NCBI GenBank assembly: GCA_947629755.1
Contig: CANREY010000007.1
Coordinates: 1-46,185, forward strand
Direction: 5' to 3'
DNA length: 46,185 bases
From: an uncultured Oscillospiraceae bacterium
Lineage (GTDB): Bacteria > Bacillota > Clostridia > Oscillospirales > Oscillospiraceae
Positions 12,754-46,185 of the stretch are shown here, in pieces. The stretch's first letter is position 1, and every line of letters begins with the position of its first letter. Position numbers and translations under genes: made by a program. The notes under the pieces were generated by a model, which saw nothing but the letters and a program-made list of their open reading frames with translations, did not search any database and was not told the origin of the DNA.

Positions 12754-12757
12754 TTTA

Positions 12758-14056: not shown

Positions 14057-14088
14057 AGCTTCTCCTTCTGGGGTAGATATGATGTGAG

Positions 14089-14117
14089 ATTATAGCACAG
14101 GGGAAGGAGTGTGTCAA
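14089..14117 (-). promoter_or_regulatory. Perfect-consensus sigma-A promoter of the glycosyltransferase operon
   Basis: On the minus strand TTGACA (14112-14117), 17 bp, TATAAT (14089-14094). Both hexamers match consensus, implying strong constitutive transcription. Confidence 0.8.
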
Positions 14118-14165
14118 ACGTGGTTTGAAGGTCCTGCCACTCATACGCCGCTCAGGCTTTTTAAA

Positions 14166-15395: not shown

Positions 15396-15514
15396 ACGCC
15401 ATTATCGCTTCCTTCATATAGCAAATGCCTATTTATTTAGCGTTTATTACTAATATAATACAACATGCTCTATGGATAAGTCAATAGTCTCATTTTTAGT
15501 GCTGTGCCTCAAAA

Positions 15515-15539
15515 CCGGAAATACTATAATAATTTCCGG
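15515..15539 (+). promoter_or_regulatory. Palindromic operator over the -10 box of the XRE gene
   Basis: CCGGAAAT (15515-15522) and ATTTCCGG (15532-15539) form a perfect 8-bp inverted repeat. The 9-bp spacer holds most of the TATAAT at 15525-15530. A dimeric XRE repressor bound here would block its own promoter (inference). No good -35 box is seen. Confidence 0.55.
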
Positions 15540-15553
15540 AAGGAGGTGGCGTG

Positions 15554-15862
15554 ATGGCAAAGAAGGAACCTATAAGCCTTGTCAACAGGGACAGGCTGAT
15601 TCAGATGGGGATCGCGATCTCCGCGCTTCGCAAAGTGCGCGGTATGTCGCAGGAGCAATTGGCTGAGAAAGCAAATATGAGCCGTTCCCATCTCAGCGCA
15701 ATCGAAGCGCCAAATATGATCCGGAGCATGTCTCTGGAGACTTTCTTCAACATCGCCGACGCCTTAGACGTAGACGCCGCAGCCCTCATCAACGCCGCCA
15801 TGTTCCCGGACAGTGTCATCAAAGGCGTGAAGTCTGACGGGAAGTCTCCCCGTAACCCCTGA
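15554..15862 (+). CDS. Small XRE-family transcriptional regulator
   Basis: This 102-residue protein is essentially one helix-turn-helix domain (about 15-80): IAISALRKVRGMSQEQLAEKANMSRSHLSAIE, then a short basic tail. ATG 15554 is preferred over GTG 15551 because AGGAGG (15541-15546) is then 7 bases away. The palindrome across its -10 box suggests negative autoregulation. It is monocistronic, closed by the 15885-15916 terminator. Its targets are not evident; the divergent SLOG operon is one candidate. Confidence 0.8.
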   Translation: MAKKEPISLVNRDRLIQMGIAISALRKVRGMSQEQLAEKANMSRSHLSAIEAPNMIRSMSLETFFNIADALDVDAAALINAAMFPDSVIKGVKSDGKSPRNP

Positions 15863-15884
15863 GGTCCCAAAATTTCCACCAAAA

Positions 15885-15916
15885 AACGGACGGGTCAATT
15901 CCCGTCCGTTTTCTCG
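15885..15916 (+). terminator. Intrinsic terminator of the XRE gene
   Basis: Stem AACGGACGGG (15885-15894) and CCCGTCCGTT (15901-15910), loop TCAATT, followed by TTCTCG; preceded by an A run. Confidence 0.75.
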
Positions 15917-15964
15917 TCCCCTCGTCCCCGCCCCCAAAACCGCGTCCTTTCACAGCTTTCGGGG

Positions 15965-15993
15965 TTGAAAGTACCGTTCCCATGTGTTATAAT
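15965..15993 (+). promoter_or_regulatory. Sigma-A promoter of the NYN-metallophosphoesterase operon
   Basis: TTGAAA (15965-15970), 17-bp spacer, TATAAT (15988-15993). It excludes any translation start before about 16,000. Confidence 0.8.
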
Positions 15994-16030
15994 TACCCTA
16001 ATTGACCATACTTTGAAAGGAGGCGGCGGA

Positions 16031-16810
16031 TTGCCGATAGTACCTGACTACACCATGAACAAGCGCCTGGCGGTGCTCATCGACGCGGACAACGTGCCGC
16101 GGGGGACACTGGGCGGCATCATGCAGGAGGTCGCCATTTACGGCACGCCCACAATAAAGCGCATCTACGGCGACTGGACCGGGCCCTACATAGCCGGGTG
16201 GAAAAATTCTCTGCTGGAAAACGCCGTGACGCCCATACAGCAGTACAGCTACACCACCGGAAAAAATTCCACGGATTCGGCTATGATAATCGACGCCATG
16301 GACATACTGTATACCGAGAAGGTGGAGGGCTTTGTCCTCGTGTCGTCCGACTCCGACTTTACGCGTCTTGCCATACGCTTAAGGGAGGCCGGCATGACCG
16401 TATTCGGCATTGGCGAGCGCAAGACGCCGGAGCCCTTCCGGGCGGCCTGCGATAAGTTCATCTACATCGAGAACATAAATAAGCCCGACGAGCCCTCCCA
16501 GCCCGACGAGGTCCACCAGTCGCGGGACAAGCGCGCCCGCAGCTCCGACAAGCCGGACAGCCGCATACCCCGGTCCCTCATACGCCTCATCGCCCAGTCG
16601 GTGGCGGATCTCAGCGAGGGCGAGGACGCGGTCTACATGGGGGAGCTGGGAAACCTCATAATGAAGAAGAAGCCGGACTTTGACTGCCGCGACTACGGCT
16701 TTAAGTCCCTGTCGGCCCTCATAAAATCCATCGACAGGTTCGAGGTGGACTTCCGCCAGACGGCGGACCCCAACGTGAAGCACCCCTACGTCCGGGACAA
16801 GGAAGCATAG
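16031..16810 (+). CDS. NYN (LabA/DUF88-like) domain protein with C-terminal OST-HTH/LOTUS domain
   Basis: This 259-residue protein is probably an RNA-directed nuclease. The N-terminal NYN/PIN-like fold (about 10-160) has the acidic residues D18 and D20 (LAVLIDADNVPRG), a central STDSAMIIDAMDI and the VSSDSDFTRLA motif that together make the metal site. After a charged linker, residues ~185-250 (SLIRLIAQSVADLS...FKSLSALIKSI) form an OST-HTH/LOTUS RNA-binding domain. The TTG at 16031 is chosen because AAAGGAGG lies 7 bases upstream and the promoter -10 is at 15988-15993. One base separates it from the metallophosphoesterase gene. Confidence 0.85.
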   Translation: MPIVPDYTMNKRLAVLIDADNVPRGTLGGIMQEVAIYGTPTIKRIYGDWTGPYIAGWKNSLLENAVTPIQQYSYTTGKNSTDSAMIIDAMDILYTEKVEGFVLVSSDSDFTRLAIRLREAGMTVFGIGERKTPEPFRAACDKFIYIENINKPDEPSQPDEVHQSRDKRARSSDKPDSRIPRSLIRLIAQSVADLSEGEDAVYMGELGNLIMKKKPDFDCRDYGFKSLSALIKSIDRFEVDFRQTADPNVKHPYVRDKEA

Positions 16811-16811
16811 C

Positions 16812-17672
16812 ATGAGCAAAATCACCCCAAAGCGCCGGAAATGGCCGTGGATACTGCTGACACTGGCACTTATAGCGTTTGTTATCATCATCGACAGCAA
16901 CACAAGGATAGTCACCGACGAGTATACCCTCGGCAACGCAAACCTCCCTGAGAGCATGGAGGGGCTTCGGATAGTCCACCTGTCCGACGTCCACGCCGCC
17001 ACTTTTGGGAAAAATAACGAAAAGCTCCTGTCCGCCGTCCGTGACATAAGCCCCGACATCATCTGCGTCACCGGGGATCTGGTGGACGGGGAGAGGTCGA
17101 AGCAGGAGCCCTGGGTAGGGAGCTTCATTCCGGAGCTTGTGAAGATAGCGCCGGTCTACTACGTCTCCGGCAACCACGAGTGGGCCGCCGGTTGGGCGAG
17201 AGACCTTTTCTCCATACTCCGGGAGTACGGCGTCACCGTACTGCGAAACGAGTTCGTCACCTTCGGCCGGGGGGACGACTACATCGTCATCGGCGGCGTC
17301 GACGACCCCAACGGCCTTCGCGACCAGAAATCCCCCGAAAAGGTGGTGGAGGAGATAAACGAGGCCCACCCCGGAAAGTACGTCCTCATGCTGGCCCACC
17401 GGGACACGGAGCTTGACATGTGGTCGGAGCTTGGCGTTGACGCGGTGCTCTGCGGCCACGCCCACGGGGGACTTGTACGCCTGCCGCTCACCGACGGCCT
17501 CGTGGCTCCGGGACAGGGCCTTTTCCCCACATGGACAGCCGGTATCTACGAGCAGGGCGGCACACAGATGCTGGTCTCCCGCGGCGTGGGCGGCACAAAG
17601 GTCGGCCCGGTACCACTTCCGAGGGTCTTCAACAACCCGGAGGTCGTCGCCATCACCCTCCAAAGGCCGTGA
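16812..17672 (+). CDS. Membrane-anchored metallophosphoesterase (YkuE-like)
   Basis: This 286-residue protein has one N-terminal membrane helix (about 11-28, after a basic MSKITPKRRK) and an extracytoplasmic calcineurin-like domain. All metal-binding motifs are visible: SDVHA, GDLVDGE, GNHEW, AHRDTE and GHAHGG. YkuE-type relatives act at the cell envelope, and UDP-sugar or lipid phosphate substrates have been proposed; the substrate here is unknown. It is the second gene of the operon with the NYN protein, one base downstream of its stop. Confidence 0.87.
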   Translation: MSKITPKRRKWPWILLTLALIAFVIIIDSNTRIVTDEYTLGNANLPESMEGLRIVHLSDVHAATFGKNNEKLLSAVRDISPDIICVTGDLVDGERSKQEPWVGSFIPELVKIAPVYYVSGNHEWAAGWARDLFSILREYGVTVLRNEFVTFGRGDDYIVIGGVDDPNGLRDQKSPEKVVEEINEAHPGKYVLMLAHRDTELDMWSELGVDAVLCGHAHGGLVRLPLTDGLVAPGQGLFPTWTAGIYEQGGTQMLVSRGVGGTKVGPVPLPRVFNNPEVVAITLQRP

Positions 17673-31122: not shown

Positions 31123-31575
31123 TCAGTTTTCCATCTGCTTTCCCAGAAACGACGCCACGGTCTGGGCCAGCTTGTATTCCACCTCGCCCACCGTTCCGTC
31201 GCCCTCGGTGAAAAAGAGCACACAGCCCATGACATCGCCCTCGGACAGTATGGGGGCGGCCACGGTGACGGTGTACTTGTCCGCCCCGTCGGCGGGGTTC
31301 ACCGCCCTGTCGGAGCTTGACCGGTGGTAGACCTGTCGGCCCTCCATAATGGCCTCCAGCTCCTGGCTCACCTGACGCCCGGTGAGCTCCCGCTTTTGTA
31401 TGCCGCACACAGCTATGACGCTGTCCCTGTCGGTGATGGCGGCGGGGAGGTTTGTGGTCTTGCTGAGCGTCTCGCACATCTGCCCCGCGAAATCGCTGAG
31501 CTCCCCCATGGGTGAGTACTTTTTGAAAATGACCTCGCCGTCCTTCTCCGTATAAATCTCCAGCGGGTCGCCGCC
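31123..31575 (-). pseudogene. spoVT: 3' part of spoVT, separated from its start by the element
   Basis: About 149 codons align without gaps of note to B. subtilis SpoVT from Gly31 (GDPLEI) to its C-terminus, as I recall that 178-residue sequence. The first ~30 codons of the AbrB DNA-binding domain are absent from this side. SpoVT is a forespore regulator under sigma-G. The missing 5' end is predicted at the far end of the element, beyond 46,185, so excision would restore the gene. Confidence 0.75.
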
Positions 31576-33273
31576 GCTGACAACATGGACATGGTAGACC
31601 TTGTCCCCGTGGTGAACGGAGGACTGAATAACGGCTGTTTGTGAGTTATCCGCCATGTCCGAATCAAAATTTGCGGCGTCCGGGAGCGTCCCGCATTTGA
31701 GAAGGCTGTCTATATCGGCCCGGAGCTCCACCTCGATGTGGTCCTCATAGACCTTGATTTTCTTTACAATGAGCTGGATGTCGTTCCGGTCCAGCTTTTC
31801 TTTGTTTAAGATGTCGTCAAAGACCTCCATGGCGGTTTTGGCCGCCCGGTTTACCCGAATGATGGTGTTGCGCTTGTTGGCGGCAAGGCGCATCTGGTTC
31901 TCGATGCCCTCTATTCGGCGCAGAAGGTCGTCCTCCAGCTCGTCGTAGGTCTCCTCCAGCGCCTCCTCCCGGTCCGGGTGCTTCATGATGTCCCGGATAC
32001 GCTGGCGCTTTGTGGCCCGGAGCTCCTCCCGCAGGTCCTCCAAGACCTCCTCCAAATTGGCCGCCGCCCGCTCCGCCTCGGCCACGTCCTCCCGTTCGCG
32101 CTCAAGCTCCTCGTTGAGCCGGTCCAGCATGGCGGAGGAGTTGTCCCTGACCTTTTGGATATATATTTTCAAAAGCTCGTCCAGCTTGTCCACTCTTATA
32201 TGGTGGCTGGTACAGCCCTTCAGCCCCCGGCGGTGGTAGAGCCCGCACCGGTAGGCGTCCTTCAGATCTGCCCGGCTCATGGCAAACATGGGGCTTCCGC
32301 AGTCACCGCACTCAAGAAAGCCGGAATAGGCGTTGTCGTACTTCTTCTGCCCCCGGTAGTGGGCGGTTGTCCGCTCGGCCAGCTGGGCACGGGCGACGGC
32401 GAAGGTGCGGTAGCTGATGATGGGCTGGTGGTGGTCCTCAATGACGATGTGGTCCTCCGCGTCCCGCCGCACGTCACGGCCGTTTATCTTCCCGCGGGTG
32501 GTCTTGCCCTGCCGGAGAGTGCCGATGTAGAAGTCATTTTTCAAAATGCCCTCCACGGTCATAATGGCCCACTCCCGGCGGGTTTCCCGGTTGGACTCTA
32601 AGCCCTCCGCCTCACGGCGTTGTTTTTCCGACATTCTCGGCGTGGGGACGCCCTCGTCGGTCAAATAATTTGCTATGCGCTTGTAGCCCCAACCGGAGAT
32701 GTAGAGCTCGAATATCTTTCGCACGATCTGGGCCTCGGTGGGGACCACCTCAAACTCCTGGCGCTGGTTGACGATGTACCCGTAAGGCGCGGCGCAGATC
32801 CACTTCCCGTCCTCCTGCCGCCGGCGGATCACGGACTTGACCTTTTTGCTGGCGTCGGTGACGGGCATCTCGTTGATGAGGAACTGGAACTGTATCTTCA
32901 GCCAGTCGTCGTCGTTGGGAAAGTCGATGTTGTCCCCGATGGAGATGATGCGCACCCCGGCGTCCCTGAGGTCCTCAAGCTCCACCAGCCCCCGGCTGTT
33001 CCGGCGGGAGAAGCGGGAGAAGTCCTTCACCACTAAGATGTCCAACCGGTGGCTCGTCAGCTCCCGCCGCATTTTCTGGTAGCCCTCCCGCTGGTCAAAG
33101 GTGTACCCCGACCGGTCCCGGTCCTCATAGAAGGTCAGCGCGCTCCCCGGAAACCGCCGCTTCACAAAATCCTCGATGATCGCCTTCTGGTTCTCAATGG
33201 ACGTATTGTCCCTGTCCAGCTCCTCGTCCACGGAGATGCGGCAGTACCCGGCGATGTCATATGTTTCTATCAA
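31123..33273 (-). CDS. Large serine recombinase fused in frame to the SpoVT C-terminal part
   Basis: This site-specific integrase has 716 codons. The resolvase-type catalytic domain (1-150) has the nucleophile S14 in YCRISVDEE and DFSRFSRRNSRG. A recombinase domain follows (about 165-300: GYKRIANYLTDEGVPTPR), then a zinc ribbon (CGDCGSPM ... YRCG ... KGCTSHHI) and a long coiled coil (~385-480). From G568 to the end the sequence stops resembling recombinases and matches SpoVT: GDPLEIYTEKDGEVIFKKYSP (the end of its AbrB domain) and a GAF-like domain ending VGEVEYKLAQTVASFLGKQME. This looks like a recombinase gene running through an att site into the host gene. TTG start, weak ribosome site. Confidence 0.88.
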   Translation of the reverse strand: MIETYDIAGYCRISVDEELDRDNTSIENQKAIIEDFVKRRFPGSALTFYEDRDRSGYTFDQREGYQKMRRELTSHRLDILVVKDFSRFSRRNSRGLVELEDLRDAGVRIISIGDNIDFPNDDDWLKIQFQFLINEMPVTDASKKVKSVIRRRQEDGKWICAAPYGYIVNQRQEFEVVPTEAQIVRKIFELYISGWGYKRIANYLTDEGVPTPRMSEKQRREAEGLESNRETRREWAIMTVEGILKNDFYIGTLRQGKTTRGKINGRDVRRDAEDHIVIEDHHQPIISYRTFAVARAQLAERTTAHYRGQKKYDNAYSGFLECGDCGSPMFAMSRADLKDAYRCGLYHRRGLKGCTSHHIRVDKLDELLKIYIQKVRDNSSAMLDRLNEELEREREDVAEAERAAANLEEVLEDLREELRATKRQRIRDIMKHPDREEALEETYDELEDDLLRRIEGIENQMRLAANKRNTIIRVNRAAKTAMEVFDDILNKEKLDRNDIQLIVKKIKVYEDHIEVELRADIDSLLKCGTLPDAANFDSDMADNSQTAVIQSSVHHGDKVYHVHVVSGGDPLEIYTEKDGEVIFKKYSPMGELSDFAGQMCETLSKTTNLPAAITDRDSVIAVCGIQKRELTGRQVSQELEAIMEGRQVYHRSSSDRAVNPADGADKYTVTVAAPILSEGDVMGCVLFFTEGDGTVGEVEYKLAQTVASFLGKQMEN
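31558..31582. other. Predicted attachment junction (attL-type) of the integrative element
   Basis: Homology to SpoVT begins at codons S566-G567-G568-D569 (around 31,567-31,578). The crossover dinucleotide should lie within or next to the GGCGGCGACCCG codons. The exact core cannot be fixed without the other junction. Confidence 0.55.
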
Positions 33274-33376
33274 CTTTAATCACCACACTTATGCAGCCTT
33301 GCAGATAATATTGTATCACAATCTCAGAGAAACAGCAAGAACAATCTGCGCCTTGAGTGGAGAATTTAATGCGATA

Positions 33377-33496: not shown

Positions 33497-34795
33497 ATGG
33501 AGATCAAGCGCGACTACTATCTGAACAAGCTGATCAGCCGAAAGGGAAACGGGCTTATAAAGATCATAACTGGCGTCCGCCGGTGCGGGAAGTCCTATTT
33601 GCTGAACACCATCTTTTACCGGCATCTGTTGGAGTGCGGTGTGCCGGAGGACCACATTATCCGGTTTGCCTTTGACTCCGCCGACGACCTTTATCTGATC
33701 GGCGAGAGCCTCATCGACATGCGCAAGGCGGGAAGAAGCGCCGATCCAGAGAAATTTATGGCGTATATCCGCACCAAAATCACGGGCAACGGGACCTACT
33801 ATCTCCTGCTGGACGAGGTGCAGATGTTGGACTCCTTCGAGGCGGTTTTAAACGGCTATCTGCGGCGTGACAACATGGACGTGTTCGTGACCGGGAGCAA
33901 CGCCAAATTCCTGTCCAGCGACATCATCACGGAGTTTGCCGGCCGGGGGGACGAGATCCATATGTACCCCCTGAGCTTTGCGGAGTTCATGACTGCCTAT
34001 CCCGGCGACAGGTATGAAGGGCTGTCACAGTACATGCTCTACGGGGGTATCCCTTTGGTGGTGTTACGGGAGAGCCCTCATGACAAGGCCGCCCTGCTGG
34101 AGAATCTGTTCAGTGAGATATATATCCGTGACATCGTGGACCGCCACGGGGTCCGGAACAGGGGAGAGCTGGAGGACCTTCTGAACATCGTGTCCTCAGC
34201 CGTGGGGTCACTGACCAACCCGGAGAAGCTGAAAAACACCTTCCACAGCGTCAAGCGTTCAAAAATCACCTCCGCCACCATCAAGAGGTATCTCGATTAT
34301 TTCCAGGACTCATTCCTGCTGGAGGCGGCACAGCGGTACGACATTAAAGGGAAGGCGTATATCGAGACGCCGAGGAAATACTACTTCTCCGATTTGGGCC
34401 TCCGCAACGCCCGTCTGAATTTCCGGCAGTTCGAGCCAAACCACGCCATGGAGAACGTGCTGTATACTGAGCTTCGGATGCGTGGGTACCGGGTGGACGT
34501 GGGCGTAGTCCCAGTGGCGGAGAGGGACCGGCTGGGCCGGGTGACCCGGCGGCAGCTGGAGGTGGACTTTGTCTGCAATCTGGGCTCCACCCGCGCATAC
34601 ATCCAGTCCGCATGGTCCCTGCCCGACGAGGACAAACGCGCTCAGGAGACGAGACCCTTTGCCAAAATCGACGACTCCTTTAAGAAGATCGTCGTCACCC
34701 GGGACATGATCCCCACCCAGTACGACGAACGGGGAATCCTGACGGTCAACGTGTACGATTTCCTCCTGGACCCCGACCTGCTGGCCGGGTCCTGA
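33497..34795 (+). CDS. AAA ATPase with DUF4143 C-terminal domain (COG1373)
   Basis: This 432-residue protein has Walker A GVRRCGKSYLL (about 27-37), Walker B YYLLLDEVQM (about 101-110) and the sensor stretch VFVTGSNAKFLSSDI. It then has a winged-helix segment and a C-terminal DUF4143 region related to restriction-endonuclease folds (TELRMRGYRVDVGV, QLEVDFVCN). Such ATPases are common in anaerobe genomes and on mobile elements, with no firm function; some are suspected in defence. The ATG has AAAGGTGA 6 bases upstream. It is divergent from the recombinase and convergent with a small gene 7 bp away. Confidence 0.85.
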   Translation: MEIKRDYYLNKLISRKGNGLIKIITGVRRCGKSYLLNTIFYRHLLECGVPEDHIIRFAFDSADDLYLIGESLIDMRKAGRSADPEKFMAYIRTKITGNGTYYLLLDEVQMLDSFEAVLNGYLRRDNMDVFVTGSNAKFLSSDIITEFAGRGDEIHMYPLSFAEFMTAYPGDRYEGLSQYMLYGGIPLVVLRESPHDKAALLENLFSEIYIRDIVDRHGVRNRGELEDLLNIVSSAVGSLTNPEKLKNTFHSVKRSKITSATIKRYLDYFQDSFLLEAAQRYDIKGKAYIETPRKYYFSDLGLRNARLNFRQFEPNHAMENVLYTELRMRGYRVDVGVVPVAERDRLGRVTRRQLEVDFVCNLGSTRAYIQSAWSLPDEDKRAQETRPFAKIDDSFKKIVVTRDMIPTQYDERGILTVNVYDFLLDPDLLAGS

Positions 34796-35060: not shown

Positions 35061-36386
35061 TCACATGGACATGGTCTGCTGTCGGTTTGGTTGATTTTCT
35101 TCATCCTCATGGTCGTCGGACTTGTGGCCCATGGCGATGCGCTTGCGCTGACGCTCACGGTACGCCTTGGTGTCAATGTGCTGATGCATAGATGTGGCGT
35201 CGCGGACGGGGCCGGTGTCGGAGAGGGTGGCCACGGTCACAGCAGTCGAGATAAGAGCGTCAGCAATAGGGTCGAGAGTGAAGACACTATCGCGGTCAGG
35301 ATGATTGAGGCTTTCGCGGTATGCGTTAAGCTGCGCACGGACTTCCTCGAAGCTCTCTCCGTGTTTTCGATGCTCGTAGTATTGCTCTCGTGCATTTTCC
35401 CAACCTGTTCCGTCAGAGACAGGACGTGGTTGTTCAGATTCTCCGTTTGGTTTAGTATCCTCTCCGCGTCCTTGGTCGTCATCAGCGTCGTGAGCATCTC
35501 TTCTATTCTTGCTTGACGTTGGAGCAGACCACTGAGGAGCGAAAGCGTCTCCACTTGACCGGGTCTGTTCAGAGCCTTCAGCTCCTCGTTGGAAAGCCTC
35601 CTGTCGGATTGCGAATTCATGTTCCATGTTCTCCTTTAAATATTTAGTTTCGTGTAACTTGTTGTCTCGGCACCGTTGGTCTTCCGGTGTGGTGTAGGTA
35701 ATGTACTTCCGCTCGTCCGTCCACTTGACTTGGTAGCCCACGCTTTTCATGAGCTCAACGAATTCCTTCCGGCTCCCAGCGTAGGCCATGCATAGGTCGA
35801 TGGTGGACATCAGAGCGAACTTCCAGCTCTGACTTTTATACGCCGAACGATACTCGCGGGAAGACATAGGCTTCTCCTTCTTCTCCCGTGGCGGCTCGAA
35901 CACCGGCAGGCCCAGCTCGGCGCAGATTTGGTCGTTGACCATTTTCAGCTGCTGTATCGTGTCGCCATCCACGTGGAGCTTGCGGCCTGTCTCGAAGTTG
36001 ACGCTGTTGATGATGAGGTGGGAGTGGACGTGGTCCCGGTCGGTGTGAGTGCAGACCAGCACCTCGTGGTCCTTGAATTGCTCCGCCAACCTGAGAGCGG
36101 CGGTGTGAGCGGTCGCGGGATTCACTTCCGCGCCGCTGGGGAAGCTCTGGACCAGGTGGTAGAACATCCTGCCGCCGTCCTTGTGGTACAGGAGCTTGGT
36201 GTTGAGGAAGTCGTCGTAGGCAGAGGCGGCCTGACAGTTGACGCCGGTGACGAGCTGGTGACCTTGCCACTGGGTCTTGGCCTTCTGTGCCACGTACTTC
36301 ATCACCGACCTCATGCACCCACGGGACTGACTGCTCTTTGAGCGGCTGGAGTAGTTGACGAAGTTGACTATCGCCAAGAGCGTCAC
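35061..36386 (-). CDS. mobA: Mobilisation relaxase (MOBP type, MobA/VirD2-like)
   Basis: It nicks DNA at oriT and pilots the strand during transfer. The 441 residues have the relaxase HUH-type metal triad in HTDRDHVHSHLIINS (H114, H119, H121, H123 region) and an N-terminal region with MKYVAQKAKT and LVTGVNC. The last ~190 residues are charged and low in order (SSGDAFAPQWSAPTSSKNRRD...); this part overlaps a second reading frame. The start is GTG at 36386, overlapping the RepA-MobC stop by 4 bp (GTGA), so the two are coupled. No oriT was identified. Confidence 0.88.
   Translation of the reverse strand: MTLLAIVNFVNYSSRSKSSQSRGCMRSVMKYVAQKAKTQWQGHQLVTGVNCQAASAYDDFLNTKLLYHKDGGRMFYHLVQSFPSGAEVNPATAHTAALRLAEQFKDHEVLVCTHTDRDHVHSHLIINSVNFETGRKLHVDGDTIQQLKMVNDQICAELGLPVFEPPREKKEKPMSSREYRSAYKSQSWKFALMSTIDLCMAYAGSRKEFVELMKSVGYQVKWTDERKYITYTTPEDQRCRDNKLHETKYLKENMEHEFAIRQEAFQRGAEGSEQTRSSGDAFAPQWSAPTSSKNRRDAHDADDDQGRGEDTKPNGESEQPRPVSDGTGWENAREQYYEHRKHGESFEEVRAQLNAYRESLNHPDRDSVFTLDPIADALISTAVTVATLSDTGPVRDATSMHQHIDTKAYRERQRKRIAMGHKSDDHEDEENQPNRQQTMSM
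35237..35620 (-). CDS. MobB-like membrane protein nested out of frame inside the relaxase gene
   Basis: This is a 127-codon frame entirely inside the relaxase gene. AAAGGAG lies 10 bases before its ATG at 35620. The protein looks genuine: a polar N-terminus (MNSQSDRRLSNEELKALNRP), a coiled coil (about 30-90, QRQARIEEMLTTLM ... TENLNNHVLSLTEQVGK) and a C-terminal membrane helix (about 104-124, ASIILTAIVSSLSTLLLTLL). The matching stretch of the relaxase frame is disordered, as expected for overprinting. ColE1- and RSF1010-type plasmids also carry MobB genes overlapping mobA in another frame, with a membrane segment. The homology itself is inferred from layout. Confidence 0.65.
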   Translation of the reverse strand: MNSQSDRRLSNEELKALNRPGQVETLSLLSGLLQRQARIEEMLTTLMTTKDAERILNQTENLNNHVLSLTEQVGKMHESNTTSIENTERASRKSVRSLTHTAKASIILTAIVSSLSTLLLTLLSRLL

Positions 36387-37309
36387 CTGCCTTCCTGCAT
36401 CTCACGGAGCGTGCGGCCAATCTCGGAGAGTTCTTTCTGTACTCCGTCCAGGTTCACCGCGTTGAGCTTACCCATGTTGCAGAGCACCGCCAGCTGGTTG
36501 ACGTTGTTCCCGATGCGCTTCAGCTCCGTGAGCACTTCCTTGAGTCCGTCCATGACCACCACCTGCTGACCGAGGCAGCACTGGGAGACGTAGTCGCTTT
36601 GGGAGAGGTGAGCCTTCTTGGCTTCGGCTCGAATGACGTCCAGCTCAAGTTGGGAGAGGCGGATGCTGAGAGTTGTGTCCCGGTACTCGATGTCCCTACC
36701 GATACAGTAGAGTGTTGCCCGTCCGCTCCCGCGTCCTTCCTCCACCAGCGTGAAGCTGGAGTCCACCGCTCCGCTGATGGCGGTGGTGCCGGAGATCCGT
36801 TTGAACACATCATCGTCCGCGTTCTCTTTCCGCAGGTGGTGGATGAGCAGGATAGCGAGGCTGTGAGCGTCGGCGATCTTCTTCAGCGCCGACAGGTCCG
36901 AGTAGTCGTTGGCGTAGGTGTTGTCCCGCTTGGCGTTGCGGACCATCTGGAGAGTGTCGATAATGACCAGCGACGTATCCATGTGCTCGGTGAGGAATGT
37001 TTCAAGCTGTTCCTCCAGCCCCGCACCCACTACTCGGCTCTCCGTGCAGAAGTGGACGTTGGCTGGGGCGTCCTCGGCGATCTCGAAGAGCCTGTTCTGG
37101 ATTCGCAGGGTCGAATCCTCAAGACAGAGATAGAGCGTCGTTCCCTGCCTCACGCTCATCCCCCACACCGGCTCCCCCTTTGCCGCCGTTACGGCCAGCC
37201 ACAGCGCCAGCCAGGATTTCCCCACCATCGGCGCACCCGCCAGGATGTGCAGGCCCTGGGACAGCAGGGAGTCTACAACAAAGTTGGGCGGGCGGATGGG
37301 TTCGTTCAT
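36383..37309 (-). CDS. RepA-like ATPase fused to a MobC relaxosome domain
   Basis: Residues 1-210 form a RecA-like AAA_25/RepA ATPase: HILAGAPMVGKSWLALWLAV (Walker A, K31), LVIIDTLQMV (Walker B), ILLIHHLRK and YCIGRDIEYR, where RepA proteins near their end. Residues ~214-308 are MobC: LSIRLSQLELDVIRAEAKKA and the hallmark ELKRIGNNVNQLAVL. Plasmid MobC helps the relaxase open oriT. The ATG at 37309 has GAGGA only 4 bases away. The RepA-like reading frame extends upstream (KTTERLKTVTGEEL) to an ATA at 37354-37352, which sits 6 bases after a perfect AGGAGG. The true start may be that ATA or a lost ATG. Confidence 0.8.
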   Translation of the reverse strand: MNEPIRPPNFVVDSLLSQGLHILAGAPMVGKSWLALWLAVTAAKGEPVWGMSVRQGTTLYLCLEDSTLRIQNRLFEIAEDAPANVHFCTESRVVGAGLEEQLETFLTEHMDTSLVIIDTLQMVRNAKRDNTYANDYSDLSALKKIADAHSLAILLIHHLRKENADDDVFKRISGTTAISGAVDSSFTLVEEGRGSGRATLYCIGRDIEYRDTTLSIRLSQLELDVIRAEAKKAHLSQSDYVSQCCLGQQVVVMDGLKEVLTELKRIGNNVNQLAVLCNMGKLNAVNLDGVQKELSEIGRTLREMQEGR

Positions 37310-37407: not shown

Positions 37408-37674
37408 TTACATCCCCACTGTCATTGACGCTCCCGCCATACGCTCACTCTCCGTTTCCCGCTCCGCCAGCTTGCGCCGGTTGGAGAGCAGTAGTCCGGA
37501 GGTCAGATCGCAGAGGTCCTCCTCGCCGGACTTGAACACGGCGACGGTGTATTTGCGCGGACCGTACTCCACGCAGAGTTTCCGCAGGGTATTGCTCAGG
37601 CTTGGGTCGCCCCACTCAGCCTTGCTCAACCAAATCTCAATAATTTTCTGGTCATCTCGAATGTTGATTTCCAA
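37408..37674 (-). CDS. Small conserved protein, 88 aa, paralogue of 34803-35012
   Basis: The function is unknown. The first 70 residues (MEINIRDDQKIIEIWLSKAEWGD..., KYTVAVFKSGEEDLCDLTSGLLLSNRRKLAERE) match the 69-residue protein at 34803. It starts with TTG at 37674, as its paralogue does, with GGAGG about 9 bases upstream. It is the first gene of the minus-strand mobilisation cluster, behind a TTGACA promoter. Being encoded first and last in the cluster, the pair could be regulators or accessory relaxosome proteins (inference). Confidence 0.7.
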   Translation of the reverse strand: MEINIRDDQKIIEIWLSKAEWGDPSLSNTLRKLCVEYGPRKYTVAVFKSGEEDLCDLTSGLLLSNRRKLAERETESERMAGASMTVGM

Positions 37675-37729
37675 ACAGCCACGCCTCCGAATATCGATAA
37701 TTCATTCTCAATTCTAATTATCTATTATC

Positions 37730-37774
37730 ATTGTAACATACCCTCTTGACTTTTGTCAAACGATAATATACACT
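37730..37774. promoter_or_regulatory. Overlapping divergent promoters around a TTGAC-TTTT-GTCAA palindrome
   Basis: Leftward: TTGACA (37754-37759), 18 bp, TACAAT (37730-37735). Rightward: TTGACT (37746-37751), 17 bp, TACACT (37769-37774). The two -35 boxes are the arms of the palindrome 37746-37759. The polymerases would exclude each other, coupling mobilisation genes to the DUF6076 gene. Confidence 0.6.
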
Positions 37775-37823: not shown

Positions 37824-38909
37824 ATGGGTGTTTTGAGAAAAGACCTTCTTGACTTTCGGCGACCCTTTACTCACGTCAAGGTCCAGTTTGGTGAGGACGG
37901 GTATTGGATCGAGGACGAGCCGGGGGTCATACCATACGGAACGACGCTTCTCGCTGTTTTGATGCTTGATGCCCGAAAATACTGCGGCCTTGTGGAGCGC
38001 CTCGAGGACAGGATCGCGGCCCGTGACCGCGAGGGAACGCTGGAGGCTTTTTATCCGATGTTGGACGAGTTCGTGCGTCTGCCGCTGTACAATCTTTTCA
38101 TCAAGGAAGCCGGCCTTATGGAGGTTGAATTATTCCATAGGGCATTCGCCGGGGAGGCGAGGACTGCACTCGCGGACGATATAATAAATGACAACGGCGC
38201 GATTCTGAACAAGTACCTCCGGGCACGGGATGACCTTTTGCTCATCCAGCGGCGGTACGCCTGGTTTTTGGACGAGATGGCCAAGTCCCGGCGCAAAGAA
38301 AAAAAGCTCCAGAAGAAATTCTCTCTTCCGGAGCAGGTCTATTGGGGCAACGTGGATGCCTTTGTCAGCGGCGTAAGCCTGGGCGAGGACTCTGAAGTAG
38401 ACGCTCCGCAGGTCAACGTACAGTATGCCATCCGCACGACAGATGACAAGGAGACCGGCGAGGTCCACGCGGAGGTCGTGGAAAAGATGTACTTCGACCG
38501 GCTCCGGGATTTTGTCTATGTGGAGCTGATGAAGGGATTGCAGAAGGGTTATGTGCCGCGCCGGTGCCTCAACTGCGGCAAATGGTTTTTGCAGACACCG
38601 GGAGTGTCCTACTCTTACTGCGCCAACATCGCGCCAGGGGAGACGGAGCGGACCTGCCGGGACGTGGGTGCCCTCGCCAGTTTCCGGGAGAAGGTGCAGG
38701 AGAATAAGATCTGGACGATCCACCAGCGGGCCTACAAGAAATATTACGCCCGTGTGTTGAAAAAGAAAATGACCAAACCGGAGTTCGAGCAGTGGGCTCG
38801 TTCTGCCGAGCAGATTCGCGACGCCGCCCTCCCCCGCTACAACCGCGCCCACGGTGAGGCGCGGAACCAAATCGCAGAGGAGGTTCGGCGGGAGCTGAAT
38901 AAGCTGTGA
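37824..38909 (+). CDS. DUF6076-like protein with a zinc-ribbon motif
   Basis: This 361-residue protein is common in Firmicutes mobile elements, function unknown. A helical N-terminal half (RKDLLDFRRPFTHVKVQFGED...) leads to a cysteine cluster near residue 250: RRCLNCGKWFLQTPGVSYSYC then ERTCRDVGA, a zinc-ribbon-like CxxC...C...C. A basic helical tail follows (KYYARVLKKKMTKPEFEQW), reminiscent of phage/element accessory proteins. The ATG has GGAGGTG 5 bases upstream. It is transcribed away from the mobilisation cluster from overlapping promoters. Confidence 0.72.
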   Translation: MGVLRKDLLDFRRPFTHVKVQFGEDGYWIEDEPGVIPYGTTLLAVLMLDARKYCGLVERLEDRIAARDREGTLEAFYPMLDEFVRLPLYNLFIKEAGLMEVELFHRAFAGEARTALADDIINDNGAILNKYLRARDDLLLIQRRYAWFLDEMAKSRRKEKKLQKKFSLPEQVYWGNVDAFVSGVSLGEDSEVDAPQVNVQYAIRTTDDKETGEVHAEVVEKMYFDRLRDFVYVELMKGLQKGYVPRRCLNCGKWFLQTPGVSYSYCANIAPGETERTCRDVGALASFREKVQENKIWTIHQRAYKKYYARVLKKKMTKPEFEQWARSAEQIRDAALPRYNRAHGEARNQIAEEVRRELNKL

Positions 38910-38976: not shown

Positions 38977-40002
38977 ATGGAGAACCAGATGATACCGCAG
39001 GGCGAGATCGTCATTTACCAGTCCGAAAACGGAAAGACAAAAATCGATGTCCGCATGGAAAACGAAAACGTTTGGCTGACACAAGCGCAGCTTGTAGAGC
39101 TTTATCAAACCACCAAATCAAATGTAAGTGAGCATATCAAGCATATCTTTGAGGACGGCGAATTGGACGAAGGGTCAGTTGTTCGGAAGTTCCGAACAAC
39201 TGCTTCAGACGGAAAAATATATAATGTCAAATACTATAATTTGGATATGATCATATCACTGGGGTATCGTATCCGCAGTATCACAGCGACCCATTTTCGC
39301 ATCTGGGCGACCCAACGCCTGAAGGAGTACATGATTAAGGGCTTTACCATGGACGACGAGCGCTTGAAGGGCTACGGCGGCGGGCAGTATTGGAAAGAGC
39401 TGCTTGCGCGTATCCGTGATATTCGCTCTTCAGAAAAAGTGCTGTACCGTCAGGTCCTTGATCTTTACGCCACAAGCGTTGATTACGACCCGAAGAGTGA
39501 GCAGTCCGTTCAGTTTTTCAAAATCGTGCAGAACAAACTGCATTATGCCGCCCATGGGCATACCGCCGCGGAAGTGATCTATGAACGGGCCGACGCCGAC
39601 AAGCCCTTTATGGGAATGACAGCATTCAAGGGAGATTTCCCCACGTTGGCAGACGCGAAGATCGCCAAAAACTATCTCACCGAGGACGAATTGAAAGTGC
39701 TCGGAAACCTTGTTTCGGGATATTTTGACTTTGCAGAAGTGCAGGCCATGAGAAAGCGTCCGATGTATATGAGAGACTACATTGAACACCTGGATTCCAT
39801 CCTGTCTGCGACTGGCGAAAACCTTCTGCTTGACGCAGGAAAAGTCAGCCACAAAGAGGCTATGGAGAAGGCGGCTGCGGAATACAGAAAATATCAGGTG
39901 CAGACGCTGTCCCCTGTGGAAGAAGCATATCTTGAAACCATCAAAGAAACAGAAAAGACAGTCAAAACGATTGCACGGCAGAATAGCAAAGAAGAAGGGT
40001 GA
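38977..40002 (+). CDS. rhuM: RhuM-family protein
   Basis: This 341-residue RhuM protein shows GEIVIYQSENGKTKIDVRMENENVWLTQAQLVELYQTTKSNVSEHIKHIFEDGEL, that is, a short beta segment followed by a KilA/ANT-like DNA-binding helix pair, then SLGYRIRSITATHFRIWATQRLKEYMIKGF. Named after a Salmonella pathogenicity-island gene, the family is widespread on islands; its molecular role is not established. Some members carry a C-terminal Fic/DOC domain, and no HPFxxGN motif is seen here. AAGGAAGGTG precedes the ATG. Its base composition is lower in GC than the host genes. Confidence 0.88.
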   Translation: MENQMIPQGEIVIYQSENGKTKIDVRMENENVWLTQAQLVELYQTTKSNVSEHIKHIFEDGELDEGSVVRKFRTTASDGKIYNVKYYNLDMIISLGYRIRSITATHFRIWATQRLKEYMIKGFTMDDERLKGYGGGQYWKELLARIRDIRSSEKVLYRQVLDLYATSVDYDPKSEQSVQFFKIVQNKLHYAAHGHTAAEVIYERADADKPFMGMTAFKGDFPTLADAKIAKNYLTEDELKVLGNLVSGYFDFAEVQAMRKRPMYMRDYIEHLDSILSATGENLLLDAGKVSHKEAMEKAAAEYRKYQVQTLSPVEEAYLETIKETEKTVKTIARQNSKEEG

Positions 40003-41638: not shown

Positions 41639-42040
41639 ATGAGCAAAGTGGGTGATTTTATTAGAGAACGGCGTCTGGCGAAGGGGCTGTCTAAGCGTCA
41701 GCTTGCTGAAAAAGCAGGTATCAGCCATTCTGAGGTTCACCGTATTGAGAACGGGGAGCGTCAGAACCCCTCCGTTCCGATGCTTATCGCGCTGGCGAAC
41801 GCTTTGGGGATTCCACAGGATGACATCCTTGTGCTGGCCGGGTACAAGACCGATGATGACAATATCCCTATGATAGAGCGGGTGTTCCCCGACCTTAAAA
41901 CGCCAAAGCAACAGGAAACCGCGCAGAAAATTGTCGATGGTCTATCCAGAAACAGTCAATTAAAGGATGCTCAGTACGACGAGCTTGTTCGACAGGTGGA
42001 GATGTATCTGGACTATGCCAAGAAAAACTCAGATTCCTGA
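41639..42040 (+). CDS. XRE-family repressor (ImmR-like)
   Basis: This 133-residue protein has an N-terminal helix-turn-helix (about 5-62: VGDFIRERRLAKGLSKRQLAEKAGISHSEVHRIENG) and a C-terminal acidic tail (KQQETAQKIVDGLSRNSQ). The ATG at 41639 has AAGGAGGTG 4 bases upstream. It overlaps the ImmA/IrrE-like gene by 26 bp and precedes hsdM/hsdS, so it likely represses the operon until ImmA cleaves or inactivates it, as in ICEBs1 (known logic; the link here is inferred). Confidence 0.82.
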   Translation: MSKVGDFIRERRLAKGLSKRQLAEKAGISHSEVHRIENGERQNPSVPMLIALANALGIPQDDILVLAGYKTDDDNIPMIERVFPDLKTPKQQETAQKIVDGLSRNSQLKDAQYDELVRQVEMYLDYAKKNSDS

Positions 42041-42968
42041 TAAACCACGGTATTCTTACGCACGGCAGCGGGCATATCGGCTACTTTGCGAATTGGAGAT
42101 AGACAGACTTCCTATCGATCCATGGGCCATTGCGAACTCGCTGCCAAATGTCCATGTTCTGAAATGGACGGAACTGCGGGATAACTGCCATCAGGCTGAC
42201 CCCTTGTCCATTGACGAGGAAGGCGCTGACGCCAAGACGCAGCATATCAGGGGAAGGGACGACTACCTGGTTGTTTATGATGACAGGGTTCTGAGTCCCA
42301 GCAGGATTCGGTGGACGGTCGCGCATGAGATCGGTCACATCGTATTGGGCCACTTAGTGTCCTTTGACGCTACGGCTCTTTGCAGGGGTAGCCTGACTGA
42401 AGCGGAGTACTATGTACTGGAAAGGGAGGCCGACTGCTTTGCAGTCAACCTCCTGGCGCCCATGACAATCATGAACAGGATTCCTTCCGTGAAGACTGCT
42501 TATGATTACATGGAGATGTGCGAGCTATCCGAAGAAGCGTCAAAGAACTGTTTGGAGGAATTGAGCCTGCTGAAAAGCGGGAAGAGGATTCCCTTCCCTA
42601 CAAAAGAGGAGGATACGCTGTTCCGTCACTTCTTCCGTTTCCTGAATGAGGTGAACGGCGTGACGGGTCCCCATCTGAACTACGACGAACTTGTGATTGA
42701 TGCGAAGTACGAAGACTACATCGAATGCGATTATTGGGATTTCATTGTAATGGTGATTCGGAAGTGGAAGTTTGAAACAGAACTTCATGCTGCCCTGGAG
42801 GGCAGCATCGCGTTATACGATTACGATGATATGGTGATTTTCATCACTGATACAGAACAGATTCCCTTCGTCAAAAGCTGTGAGGGAATCATCCTTGAGA
42901 GCCTGCAGAAGTACGCAGACTCCCGTGTCAAAAGAATAGAGGTCGCTGAAGCACGGCTACGGACATAG
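42015..42968 (+). CDS. ImmA/IrrE-family metallopeptidase with C-terminal extension
   Basis: This 317-residue protein has the HExxH zinc-peptidase motif VAHEIGHIVLGHL (H104, H108) and a downstream acidic ligand region LEREADCFAVNLLAP. ImmA/IrrE cores are ~150-170 residues; here about 140 further residues (FPTKEEDTLFRHFFRFL..., YEDYIECDYWDFIVMVI...) form an unidentified acidic domain. The ATG at 42015 lies within the XRE gene, so translation is probably coupled. Targets would be the XRE repressor just upstream. The next gene is hsdM after 38 bp. Confidence 0.85.
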   Translation: MPRKTQIPDKPRYSYARQRAYRLLCELEIDRLPIDPWAIANSLPNVHVLKWTELRDNCHQADPLSIDEEGADAKTQHIRGRDDYLVVYDDRVLSPSRIRWTVAHEIGHIVLGHLVSFDATALCRGSLTEAEYYVLEREADCFAVNLLAPMTIMNRIPSVKTAYDYMEMCELSEEASKNCLEELSLLKSGKRIPFPTKEEDTLFRHFFRFLNEVNGVTGPHLNYDELVIDAKYEDYIECDYWDFIVMVIRKWKFETELHAALEGSIALYDYDDMVIFITDTEQIPFVKSCEGIILESLQKYADSRVKRIEVAEARLRT

Positions 42969-43006: not shown

Positions 43007-45574
43007 ATGCCAAAGTTAACCATTTCCCAATTAGAAAGCCATCTGCTAAAAGCGGCAGACATTCTGCGCGGCAAGATGGATGCGTCAGAGTTTAAGGAAT
43101 ACATTTTTGGTATTCTGTTCTTGAAAAGGCTGTCGGACAACTTTGCCCAGAAACGCAGGGAACTGGAAGCCGAGTATAAAGGAGACCTCTCCCCGGAAGA
43201 TCTTGAGGACTTTTTGGAGGACAAGACTTCGTACGGTAGCACGTTCTTCGTTCCTCGCATCGCCCGCTGGGAATGCGAAGACAACGGGGATGGCTGGACA
43301 GGTCTGCTCCATGTGAAGGTCGATGTAGCGTCAAAGCTGAAGCGGGCGCTCATCGCCATTGAAAAGGAAAACATACAGCTGGATGGTGTGCTACGGAATA
43401 TCGACTTTGCCCGCAAGGTAAAGAATAAGCAGATCATTACCAACGAGCGCCTTGTGCAGCTGGTTTGGCATTTTAACAAGTACAGGCTGACGAACGATAA
43501 CTTTGTGTTCCCGGACCTGCTCGGTGCAGCCTACGAATACATGATTAAGAACTTCGCCGATTCTGCCGGGAAGAAGGGCGGAGAATTCTACACACCCTCA
43601 ACGGTCGTTCAACTGATGGTACGCCTCATCAAGCCGCAGGAGAACATGGAAGTGTATGATCCCACGGTCGGCAGCGGCGGTATGCTGATTCACAGCAAGC
43701 AGTTTGTTGAGGAACAAGGCGGTGATGGAAGCAAACTGTCGCTCTTCGGGCAAGATGACGCGGCCACGGTATGGTCCATCTGCAAGATGAACATGATCAT
43801 GCACGACATCCAAGACGCTGACATCCAGCACGGCGATACCATCATGGAACCTTACTGGCAGAAGGATGGCGTTGTTCGCCAGTTCGACAGGGTCATTGCC
43901 AATCCACCCTTCTCTCAGAACTACACGAAGAGTGACAAGATGAAATGCCAGAACCGCTTTGTGTACGGCTGGACTCCGCAGACTGGCAAGAAGGCCGATC
44001 TGATGTTTGTGCAACATATGATTGCCAGCACAAAGCCGAACGGGATGATGATTACTGTCATGCCACATGGAGTTCTGTTCCGCGGAGGAGCGGAAAAAAC
44101 CATCCGCAAGGGCATTCTTGAAGATAAGCGGGATATCGTACAGGCTATCATCAGCCTGCCGCCGGATTTGTTCTACGGAACCACCATTCCGACCTGCCTA
44201 CTCGTCATCAATAAGAAGAAGCCTGCTGCGCTCGCCGGAAAAATCCTGATTATCAACGCGGATGCCGAGTATGGCGAAGGGAAAAACCAGAACTTCCTCC
44301 GCCCGGAGGACACCGAGAAAATCGTCTGGGTGTTTGACCACGTGGTGGAAGTTCCCGGCTATTCGTCTATCGTTTCCATAACCGATATTCTGGATGAAAA
44401 GAAGAATGACACCAACCTGAATATCACAAGGTACGTCGATAATGCTCCTGCGCTTGAACCGCAGGATGTTCGTGCGCATATGCTCGGGGGCGTTCCAAAT
44501 GCAGAGATTGAGGCTCTTGGGGCGGCAATCTCCAAGTATAGTATTCCCGCACAGGACATTTTTACCGACCGTGGAACAGGCTATTCTGATTTCAATGCTT
44601 GCTGTACTACGAAGGGACTCATCAAGGATTTTGTCTCTTCCCACAGCGGAGTCGTAACCGCTCACGAAAAGATGATTTCCGCTTTTGAAGAGTTTTGGGC
44701 GGAAGCCGCGCCCGCAGTCAGTAGCGTTCATACGGATATGGGTATTGCAGAATTTGCCATGACCTTTACCACCTTGCTCGTGAAGAAACTGCAGCCGCTG
44801 GGTATTCTGGATCAGTTCCAGAGCCGCGGCGTGTTCGCCAACTGGTGGGAACACAGCTATACGGTCCGGGAATATACGGATATCGAACAGTCTGCCGAGG
44901 GTAAGGAAGTCAAAGTGGATGTGAAAGAAGTCATCCGCATCAAGAACGTCTTTAAGACGATCAATGCAGAGGGCTTTGTCTCCTCTCTGGTCAGCGATGA
45001 CAAGATTGCCGAGGTTCACTTTGCTGATGAGCTTGCTGCCCTGAAAAAGCTCCGCGAGGATGCAGAAAACGCTCAGGCTGATTTGCTGGCTTATGTGGCT
45101 TCTATCGAGATAGAAACCGATGACGACGATTCTTATGATGGCGATGAGGAGAAAGAGCCGAAGGAACCGTCCGTCAAGGAAGTGGAAACCTATCTTAAAA
45201 GCCTCGGAACAGACGAGGCGAAGGCTTCTCTGAAACAGATTGCCGCCCTTAAAAAAGAAAAGAATCGCCTGAAAAGGGTGGTCAAGAAAAAGGAATCCGA
45301 ACTGCAAGAAAAAATCGACGCTATTCGCGAGGAATTGACCGAGGAGCAGTGCGAAGACCTTGTAATGCAACTTCTTCATGACGGGTTCGTCGAGGAACTG
45401 GACGCCTACCTTTCCGCCGGGGTTCAGAAAACCATTCGTGCGGTCAACAAACTGTGGGAAAAATACCACGTTTCTGTCACCGCGCTGTTGGATGAGCGGA
45501 AGAAAGCCGAGGACAAGCTGAACGGATTTCTCGCACAGTTGGGATATATACCGAAAAAGGAGGTTGGCGCATGA
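43007..45574 (+). CDS. hsdM: Type I restriction-modification DNA methyltransferase subunit (HsdM)
   Basis: This N6-adenine methylase is the M subunit of a type I complex. The 855 residues have an HsdM N-terminal helical domain (about 1-150), the SAM motif [13 protein letters not shown] (D218-S223-G225) and the catalytic NPPF (N299-F302) in [12 protein letters not shown]. Standard HsdM has ~500 residues. The C-terminal ~350 form a long acidic coiled-coil region (about 690-830: [35 protein letters not shown]). GAGGAG lies about 7 bases before the ATG. It overlaps hsdS by 4 bp (ATGA). HsdR is presumably beyond the window. Confidence 0.93.
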
Positions 45575-46185
45575 CCTCCATGACAAAACATACTCTGATC
45601 GACTGTTTTTCCCTACGCGCCCGCATCGGCTGGCAGGGCTTGCGGTCGGATGAATTTAAGACTGAGGGACCATATCTTGTAACGGGTGTAGACTTCCATA
45701 ATGGCAAAGTCGATTGGGATGACTGTTATCATGTTTCCATTGACCGTTACGAACAGGATAAAGGCATCCAGCTTCGAGAAAACGACCTACTTGTAACAAA
45801 GGATGGTACTGTTGGTAAGACCGCCTTTGTAGTGGATTGCCCAGAGCAGGCTACTCTTAATAGCCATATATTCCTGGTCCGTTCCAAGGACGGCTCTGTC
45901 GAGCCGGAATATCTGTACTATGTTTTGAACTCGTATATCTTTGCGGATTTTATGAAGAACATACTCACAGGAACGACCATAAAAGGGTTGACTCAGGGGA
46001 ATTTTTATAAATTTGTATTTGAGGCTCCTGACGTGCCGACGCAGAAAAAAATCGTGGAGGTCTTGGAAGCTATTGATGCGGTTATCAATAAGACGAGGAA
46101 ATTCATTAAGAAGTACACAAATATAAAGGCAGGAATGCTACACGATCTTTTCGAGACACAACTCGAAAGTTATAAAAAAAGACCA
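45571..46185 (+). CDS. hsdS: Type I restriction specificity subunit (HsdS), 3' end outside window
   Basis: About 205 residues are present, from [14 protein letters not shown] target-recognition domain runs to ~150 ([61 protein letters not shown]). A conserved helix follows ([39 protein letters not shown]), typical of the HsdS spacer. A second target-recognition domain would follow beyond the edge. The start overlaps the hsdM stop by 4 bp. Confidence 0.9.

Follow-up and report, generated by a model that had tools for sequence, protein, structure and literature searches.

The 46,185-nucleotide stretch analysed here (the window) is the entire contig C7 of a 2.2-Mb, 130-contig genome from an uncultured Oscillospiraceae bacterium, and it carries a reading frame in which a large serine recombinase runs without interruption into SpoVT, the product of a sporulation regulator gene. 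Judged from sequence, this frame marks one end of an integrative element that targets spoVT and whose integration exchanges the C-terminus of its own recombinase. This reading draws on the attachment (att) site, its core, the exact split of spoVT, an empty site in a sister species, the fusion, and an alternative recombinase tail, all as they appear in the sequences compared. An initial annotation of the window had proposed a skin-like element interrupting spoVT under possible developmental control, and as a whole that interpretation is partly supported.

A spoVT gene split by a recombinase-bearing element

The fused frame lies on the minus strand (33273..31123 including the stop; coding 31126..33273), begins with TTG and encodes 716 amino acids. 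Approximately residues 1-567 form a large serine recombinase with the features of that class, namely a Resolvase catalytic domain (residues 7-158 in Pfam), a Recombinase domain (178-301) and a zinc ribbon (316-368), and the closest match in a search of solved structures is SprA (YokA) of SPbeta. The remainder corresponds to SpoVT residues 34-179, with no stop between the two parts. This 3' part of the split host gene (31126..31568, minus strand, 146 codons) includes the SpoVT_C sensor domain (residues 591-715, E 8e-40). The NCBIfam spore_V_T model matches residues 565-715 over profile positions 27-180 of 180, and its score of 150 bits is below the cut-off of 236, as would be expected of a partial SpoVT. 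The boundary proposed initially, between residues 567 and 568, agrees with an 8-base core at 31572..31565. Since the fusion recurs at the identical codon in 11 of the 34 genomes of the window organism's genus and in 62 of 67 public loci, it is not a chance feature of this window, and the fused reading frame is confirmed.

Because the window comprises all of C7, sequence past 46185 cannot be read there, and the missing 5' fragment of spoVT sits on another contig, C48, where it was located by searching the genome with the whole SpoVT model. C48 carries the first 33 spoVT codons together with the start codon and upstream region, ending at GGCGACCC (L013:11432-11439), after which 24 non-SpoVT residues are followed by a stop. 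Comparison with this fragment identifies the same core on the window side (attR, P-B'; 31565..31572, minus strand), which reads GGCGACCC-GCTGGAG, and joining the two sides at the core yields an unbroken SpoVT. The central GA of the core is the putative crossover dinucleotide. A P arm (31573..31620, minus strand) was assigned in the window by reading alone; in relatives the reverse complement of this arm is similar to P' at the opposite end, giving an imperfect dyad. The source genome contains one SpoVT C-terminal domain; a second spoVT was found neither with the SpoVT_C domain nor with the whole SpoVT model, and that candidate was rejected. Element DNA within the window extends from the core to the contig end (31569..46185, unstranded), and the remainder occupies C48 from approximately 11435 to 17310. 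The end of C7 bears hsdM followed by an hsdS-like start, and that of C48 bears hsdR, in an order and on a strand that fit one operon across the gap, so the element would span about 20.5 kb plus a gap of unstated length; the two contig ends share no exact overlap of at least 15 bases.

Within the genus, 19 of the 34 genomes contain a full-length spoVT, 11 have the gene split at the same codon, and four have neither form whole. All 11 split copies join in frame to recombinase sequence, and all 11 of their 5' pieces continue into a similar tail (e.g., SLTALTxWERFCLAMMALxERxG). A search for the recombinase (E 1e-60) recovered it from 10 of the 34 genomes, every one of them split, while the eleventh split genome (G031) has only a fragment of the recombinase gene; in both G023 and G031 the contig holds only part of the gene. 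When the two halves are joined, the proteins of 10 split genomes align with intact SpoVT over 179 residues with zero gaps. The alignment displayed nine of the 19 intact genes, all 19 of which have 179 codons, and G019 was excluded because its 5' piece has no start. This 5' piece (L064, G019:C34 approximately 2307-2375, minus strand) does not lie at a contig end and is a possible decayed split allele.

The split and intact states are interspersed in the genus phylogenies. On an rpoB tree of 30 loci, from which one short locus was dropped (10 split, 17 intact, two without), the state requires five changes, three of them forced by well-supported branches, and a spoVT tree of 30 rows also requires five changes, all of which are forced. 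A tree of the recombinase (nine rows) does not clearly track the hosts, although only one of its six inner branches is well supported. Among the sister pairs are split G033 and intact G014, the latter displaying the empty spoVT site. Here the spoVT promoter and 5' part align until the core, while the 3' part plus approximately 190 bases past the gene align from the core onward, with a 16-base overlap at the junction and the element lying exactly between the aligned parts. Recombining attL and attR of G033 on paper gives the attB of G014, identical over the 65 bases shown. Together with the gap-free joined proteins, this exact empty site upholds the proposal that excision would rebuild spoVT. 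The left flank of the pair realigns past a 2.7-kb stretch unique to the G014 flank, and the far right flank is unaligned apart from repeats.

In a second close pair, split G031 and intact G017, the right flank is collinear for more than 7 kb and about 200 bases are shared on the left. The flanks of the window are mostly rearranged relative to intact relatives in the genus, and in most pairs compared the left flank beyond approximately 100 bases upstream of spoVT is not shared, which is why the empty site was taken from G033 and G014. The left flanks of the window genome (L013:1-11240) and of other split genomes break approximately 100 bases upstream of spoVT in most of the close pairs, several right flanks being collinear, and this abrupt break perhaps marks a second hotspot. 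A 2.5-kb segment is found inside the element in G033 (L050) and directly upstream of the intact spoVT promoter in G014 (L035).

Attachment sites and distribution across Clostridia

Both halves of spoVT were found on one contig in 15 genomes, 13 from outside the genus and two from within it. All 15 cases have direct order and orientation, with the halves approximately 7 to 56 kb apart, which excludes inversion for those 15. Both halves of a single-copy gene are thereby found in direct arrangement around a recombinase-bearing element, with the orientation taken from these single-contig cases.

The anatomy of the att sites was determined from the 14 single-contig elements that were fetched. In all 14, the P arm on the fusion side and the P' arm at the opposite end are arranged about the core as an imperfect dyad, matching at 10 to 22 of 26 positions (mean 16.6, where 6.5 would be expected for random equal-frequency bases), and the B arms match at 7-10 of 20 positions, with 5 expected. 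These expectations assume random bases rather than a shuffled control. Both arms, moreover, encode protein. The core, GGYGACCC, occupies the same position in 14 of 14 elements, with G037 and G082 differing by one base between their ends. Tails encoded on the P' side resemble each other across the 14 elements, with 25-30 residues, and that of the window genome has 24 residues. In the circular form this tail would be the recombinase's own C-terminus, consistent with the early suggestion that excision changes how the recombinase ends.

A scan of GTDB genome contigs returned 67 loci, nine of them from the window organism's genus, with best-segment identities to the window of 52 to 92 percent. Several begin part-way at a contig end. 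Among the loci are those of Agathobaculum butyriciproducens DSM 100391 and of Chakrabartyella piscis, the latter on a complete chromosome (G070, CP092441). The recombinase reads in frame into SpoVT in 62 of the 67 (all seven of L077-L083 and 55 of the 60 in L084-L143); of the remaining five, the contigs of L114, L130, L137 and L142 end no further than the junction, and L135 is at another site. At this last locus (G078:C9, approximately 35919-48408), an element of about 12.5 kb bounded by P and P' ends of its own is inserted outside spoVT, close to the 3' end of a different gene; the spoVT of that genome is intact. It represents a secondary target and indicates that the site can be missed. It carries the one recombinase found at an unrelated site, and this recombinase lacks the SpoVT tail; a tail shared at unrelated sites, which would have spoken against the initial annotation, was not seen.

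Fifty of the 58 genomes from outside the genus were searched whole for SpoVT, and 48 of these contain a SpoVT part starting at model position 18-27. According to the match listing, 38 of the 48 also contain an N-terminal piece ending at position 32-45; N-terminal matches extending past position 45 were treated as other AbrB-type genes and excluded. One genome, G076, had no SpoVT match. Across the class, at least 199 of 291 genomes had a SpoVT match at E 1e-24, a count drawn from the best-scoring matches, mostly without the rows of split genes. Two SpoVT-like N-terminal pieces, each 35-37 residues long, occur in Ruminococcaceae bacterium P7 (G045:C48:517-627 and G045:C75:4658-4762).

A scan of viral sequences with the window protein gave zero matches, and the same scan with an alignment as the query gave 19 relatives. 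Four IMG/VR contigs designated viral (L234-L237) encode recombinases of this family, with a read-through into SpoVT in three of them and a contig end at the core in the other. These contigs may be this element instead of phages.

Excision, sporulation and comparison with known elements

Promoter-like sequences and selection bear on when the element might leave. Upstream of spoVT, the motif TGMATA, 17 bases, GATACTA, which we take to be of the sigma-G type (sigma-G/F-like), is present in each of the 10 split genomes that were aligned and in 12 of the 19 with an intact gene; the promoters of the remaining seven, mostly from distant genomes, differ. By this promoter, spoVT looks like a forespore gene. 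Aligned upstream regions place a promoter of the recombinase at 33310..33338 on the minus strand (TTGCTG, 17 bases, TACAAT), sigma-A-like by comparison with the promoter consensus, with TTGC and TACAAT kept in seven of eight aligned regions (G019 differs).

Pairwise mean ratios of nonsynonymous to synonymous substitution rates (dN/dS) for the two spoVT pieces are 0.035 and 0.135 in split genomes (10 and 11 genomes) and 0.026 and 0.146 in intact ones (16 genomes, with three distant intact genomes omitted and 22 and 39 of the 120 intact pairs dropped as saturated). The corresponding values are 0.29 for the tail, 0.11 for the recombinase (eight genomes) and 0.34 for its last 50 codons. Such ratios partly mirror periods with an intact gene, and counts of codon changes on tip branches, chosen where a near sister and an outgroup existed, are a fairer test. 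These give 61 silent and two amino-acid changes on six split branches, and 32 and five on four intact branches. The split spoVT alleles show no sign of relaxed selection. In addition, spoIVA is present in 30 of the 34 genus genomes, including all 11 with a split gene.

We propose that a conserved stretch of spoVT (codons for R-D/E-G-D-P-L-E) serves as the attachment site, and that the recombinase would join attP, lying within the 3' end of its own gene, to attB in spoVT; its catalysis of this reaction is inferred from the att sites and the empty site. On integration, the 33-codon 5' piece would remain under the spoVT promoter and the 3' piece would be fused in frame to the recombinase, which is the arrangement seen in the sequences. 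On excision, as predicted from the junctions, spoVT would be rebuilt exactly and the recombinase would end in the alternative tail of 24-30 residues, which the elements share in similar form. A small protein may switch the reaction from integration to excision, and the element would leave cells heading into sporulation, making carriage and sporulation compatible. Overall, we lean towards excision accompanying sporulation, because carriers are common and keep both spoIVA and a spoVT without relaxed selection, and because the gene that they would otherwise forgo is required for mature spores in a relative.

Contig ends offer a further indication. Of 71 recombinase-bearing contigs, 66 could be placed, and 22 of these end within 10.3 kb downstream of the core; with L236 and L237 the total is 24. 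Three of the 24 (L114, L130 and L235) end inside the 8-base core, where uniformly distributed ends would give approximately 0.02, their distances from the core having been set by hand from the contig ends as read. This suggests that reads diverge at the core, with integrated and excised forms coexisting or one element present in several hosts. Database trimming could contribute to the end of L235. The possibility that L130 (G076:C9) and L235, which ends in GGTGA, are whole circles was rejected, as neither begins at the core.

Several observations weigh against excision linked to sporulation. The core contig breaks were spotted after the fact, and one element in two hosts could also produce them. 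A degenerate attP pattern allowing up to two mismatches detected the circle junction in none of 61 carrier genomes. The recombinase promoter looks vegetative and not sporulation-specific. The insertions are possibly younger than the branches on which changes were counted, or too young for visible decay. In G024 (L056/L132) the recombinase frame is broken with the SpoVT part still open, and in G019 the 5' piece has no promoter or first codons. The annotation's expectation of a spoVT 5' fragment at the far end, correct for the source genome on C48 with the same core, did not extend to 10 of the 48 genomes with a SpoVT part, for which no 5' piece was listed (G034, G039, G044, G048, G053, G062, G067, G071, G072 and G073). 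Likewise, its expectation that no complete separate spoVT would be present holds in the source genome and fails in G039, which has an intact spoVT of clearly different sequence beside the fused one. Finally, excision in the forespore would remove the element from the spore chromosome unless it is retained and reintegrated, and a skin-like programme here must solve spore inheritance of the element, which mother-cell elements need not.

One way of solving it, which we consider rather unlikely, is a reversible sporulation switch with a recombinase that signals its own state, in which the integrated recombinase with its SpoVT sensor domain would favour excision under sporulation cues, the native tail of the circle would favour integration, and the circle would persist in the dormant spore and reintegrate once the spore has germinated. 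Because spoVT acts in the forespore, excision in such a switch must occur in the future spore cell.

Possible, with a distinctly smaller share of our confidence than excision tied to sporulation, is that this is a plain integrative or mobilizable element using spoVT as attB, whose carriers are sporulation-defective until chance loss or transfer and whose fusion is a by-product of where attP lies. The sigma-A-like recombinase promoter, the relaxase and MobC aboard, the several switches between split and intact states, the one off-target insertion alongside an intact spoVT and the damaged 5' piece of G019 all fit this explanation. So does the finding that the elements of G000, G024 and G030, which are close relatives, have little DNA in common beyond the recombinase stretch in the pieces compared. 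C. difficile spoVT mutants, according to the part of the report available, form zero heat-resistant spores (PMC3789822), which also accords with sporulation-defective carriers. However, a dead-end insertion is hard to square with carriage by 11 of 34 species, all with spoIVA, with the lack of any sign of relaxed selection on split alleles, and with fusions that stay in frame in 62 of the 67 loci, which come from many Clostridia.

The idea that the fusion protein itself provides SpoVT function, making excision unneeded, is very improbable and was rejected. It could draw on the frame being open in those 62 loci and on the recombinase having its own promoter-like sequence, but the fusion is without the N-terminal half of the AbrB domain, which forms the DNA-binding part, the stretch before the junction varies among elements while the SpoVT part is conserved, and the spoVT promoter is on the other piece. 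Least credible of all, and likewise rejected, are a DNA invertase flipping the segment and a contig misassembly, which the placement of the halves on different contigs in the window genome might suggest but which conflict with the direct orientation in 15 of 15 single-contig cases (including the complete C. piscis chromosome), the empty site in a sister species and the same structure in many independent assemblies.

Among the closest known systems is the skin element of sigK (SpoIVCA in B. subtilis; CD1231, with CD1234 as its directionality factor, in C. difficile), likewise a serine recombinase element splitting a sporulation regulator gene that precise excision would rebuild. A sigma-A-type recombinase promoter, described for C. 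difficile skin in the part of that report available, is common to both (PMC5025042). Unlike skin, the element described here targets a gene with a forespore-type promoter and not a mother-cell gene, its recombinase and the host gene form one in-frame fusion, and no phage genes were found among its scanned proteins. SPbeta in spsM (SprA/SprB), whose recombinase SprA/YokA is the nearest solved one, also rebuilds its gene upon excision, as is proposed here. However, SPbeta is a phage, whereas the spoVT element carries relaxase and restriction genes, and the accessible text on SPbeta restricts its sporulation excision to the mother cell (PMC4191935). A solved SPbeta construct is named as the recombinase plus YotN in one chain, which we take to be an engineered fusion resembling the natural C-terminal fusion here. 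The gin element in gerE (B. cereus GirC/GirX) is, like the spoVT element, a non-prophage gene-intervening element with a recombinase and a small protein, which were used together in vitro; gerE, in contrast, acts in the mother cell, and the portion of the gin description available gives no recombinase-target fusion (PMC5595907).

Likeness to the Ccr recombinases of the staphylococcal cassette chromosome (SCC) extends to the large serine recombinase class, with a CcrB model match at E 2e-33, but identity was rejected because the scores (CcrB 116, CcrC 97 and CcrA 83 bits) are far below their cut-offs (900, 900 and 700). SCC inserts varied cargo in a host coding gene, as does the spoVT element; the site is different, and the attP of the spoVT element lies within the recombinase frame. 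In SSV-type archaeal viruses attP lies in the integrase gene, and in integration-dependent immunity phages it lies in the repressor. As in these, the attP considered here is in an element gene whose product is altered by integration, with the difference that the integrase gene, instead of being broken or losing a tag, is left complete and acquires a sensor domain from the host.

Sporulation-gene-interrupting elements are already known, namely skin, SPbeta, gin, vfbin and vrin, and in the parts of the literature available these are described in mother-cell genes, whereas spoVT looks like a forespore gene (PMC5595907, PMC4191935, PMC5025042). Among the papers listed by literature searches, judged from titles and the openings of abstracts, none reported an interrupted spoVT. 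Within that literature, the forespore-type target, a fusion that swaps the recombinase C-terminus and the wide range across Clostridia are new. Excision in the mother cell costs an element nothing because the mother cell dies. A widespread spoVT element breaks this pattern and raises the question of how an element can persist while blocking a gene that the genome-transmitting cell itself requires. The exchange of the C-terminus between states could be a previously unseen form of directionality control. Should carriers be unable to sporulate before the element has left, the transmission of gut bacteria would be affected (e.g., relatives of Agathobaculum and Dysosmobacter).

Cargo of the element and its small protein

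Beyond the recombinase, a Pfam scan of the window element identified an AAA_14/DUF4143 ATPase (33497..34795, plus strand), a MobA/VirD2-like relaxase (35061..36386, minus), a protein combining AAA_25 with the NikA/MobC mobilization family (36383..37309, minus), a DUF6076 protein (37824..38909, plus), a RhuM-family protein (38977..40002, plus), an ImmA/IrrE-like (M78) protein (41967..42968, plus) and the type I restriction methylase HsdM (43007..45574, plus). The start of an HsdS-like specificity subunit, cut by the contig end, was recognised by reading only (45571..46185, plus). The relaxase suggests that the element is probably mobilizable. No phage structural genes were found among the 11 proteins of the window element scanned with Pfam in sets of seven and four, one in the second set having no family at all; the scan took in neither smaller frames nor the C7-C48 gap.

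As read from the frames, cargo varies among elements, while the recombinase and a small protein recur. Clusters present in at least three of the 14 elements, besides the recombinase, are an ATPase family (four elements) and the small protein; this count disregards a flank gene and an artefact read antisense to the 5' piece of spoVT. In the window the small protein has 88 amino acids (37411..37674, minus) and stands at the head of the mobilization genes; its family is found in most elements. A more sensitive search detected it in 14 of 14 elements, in seven of the 11 split genomes of the genus (available pieces) and, among 60 public loci, in 49, of which 10 contain a query itself; in nine of the 11 misses, less than 200 bases of sequence precede the recombinase. 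No NCBIfam or PHROG family was found for the window copy and no Pfam family for three relatives, whose NCBIfam matches were very weak (E 0.02-0.1), and a profile search of solved structures gave nothing convincing (best E 0.14). Often encoded just upstream of the recombinase, the small protein is the best candidate for an excision (directionality) factor.

Upstream of the small protein, at 37676-37760, a sigma-A-like promoter with the inverted repeat TTGACaaaaGTCAA over its -35 region was noted by reading and is a possible operator. Near the 5' end of another element (L190, G079:C4), two frames at 2923-4846 and 4838-5561 cluster with the recombinase and might represent either a stacked element or a further recombinase that is broken.

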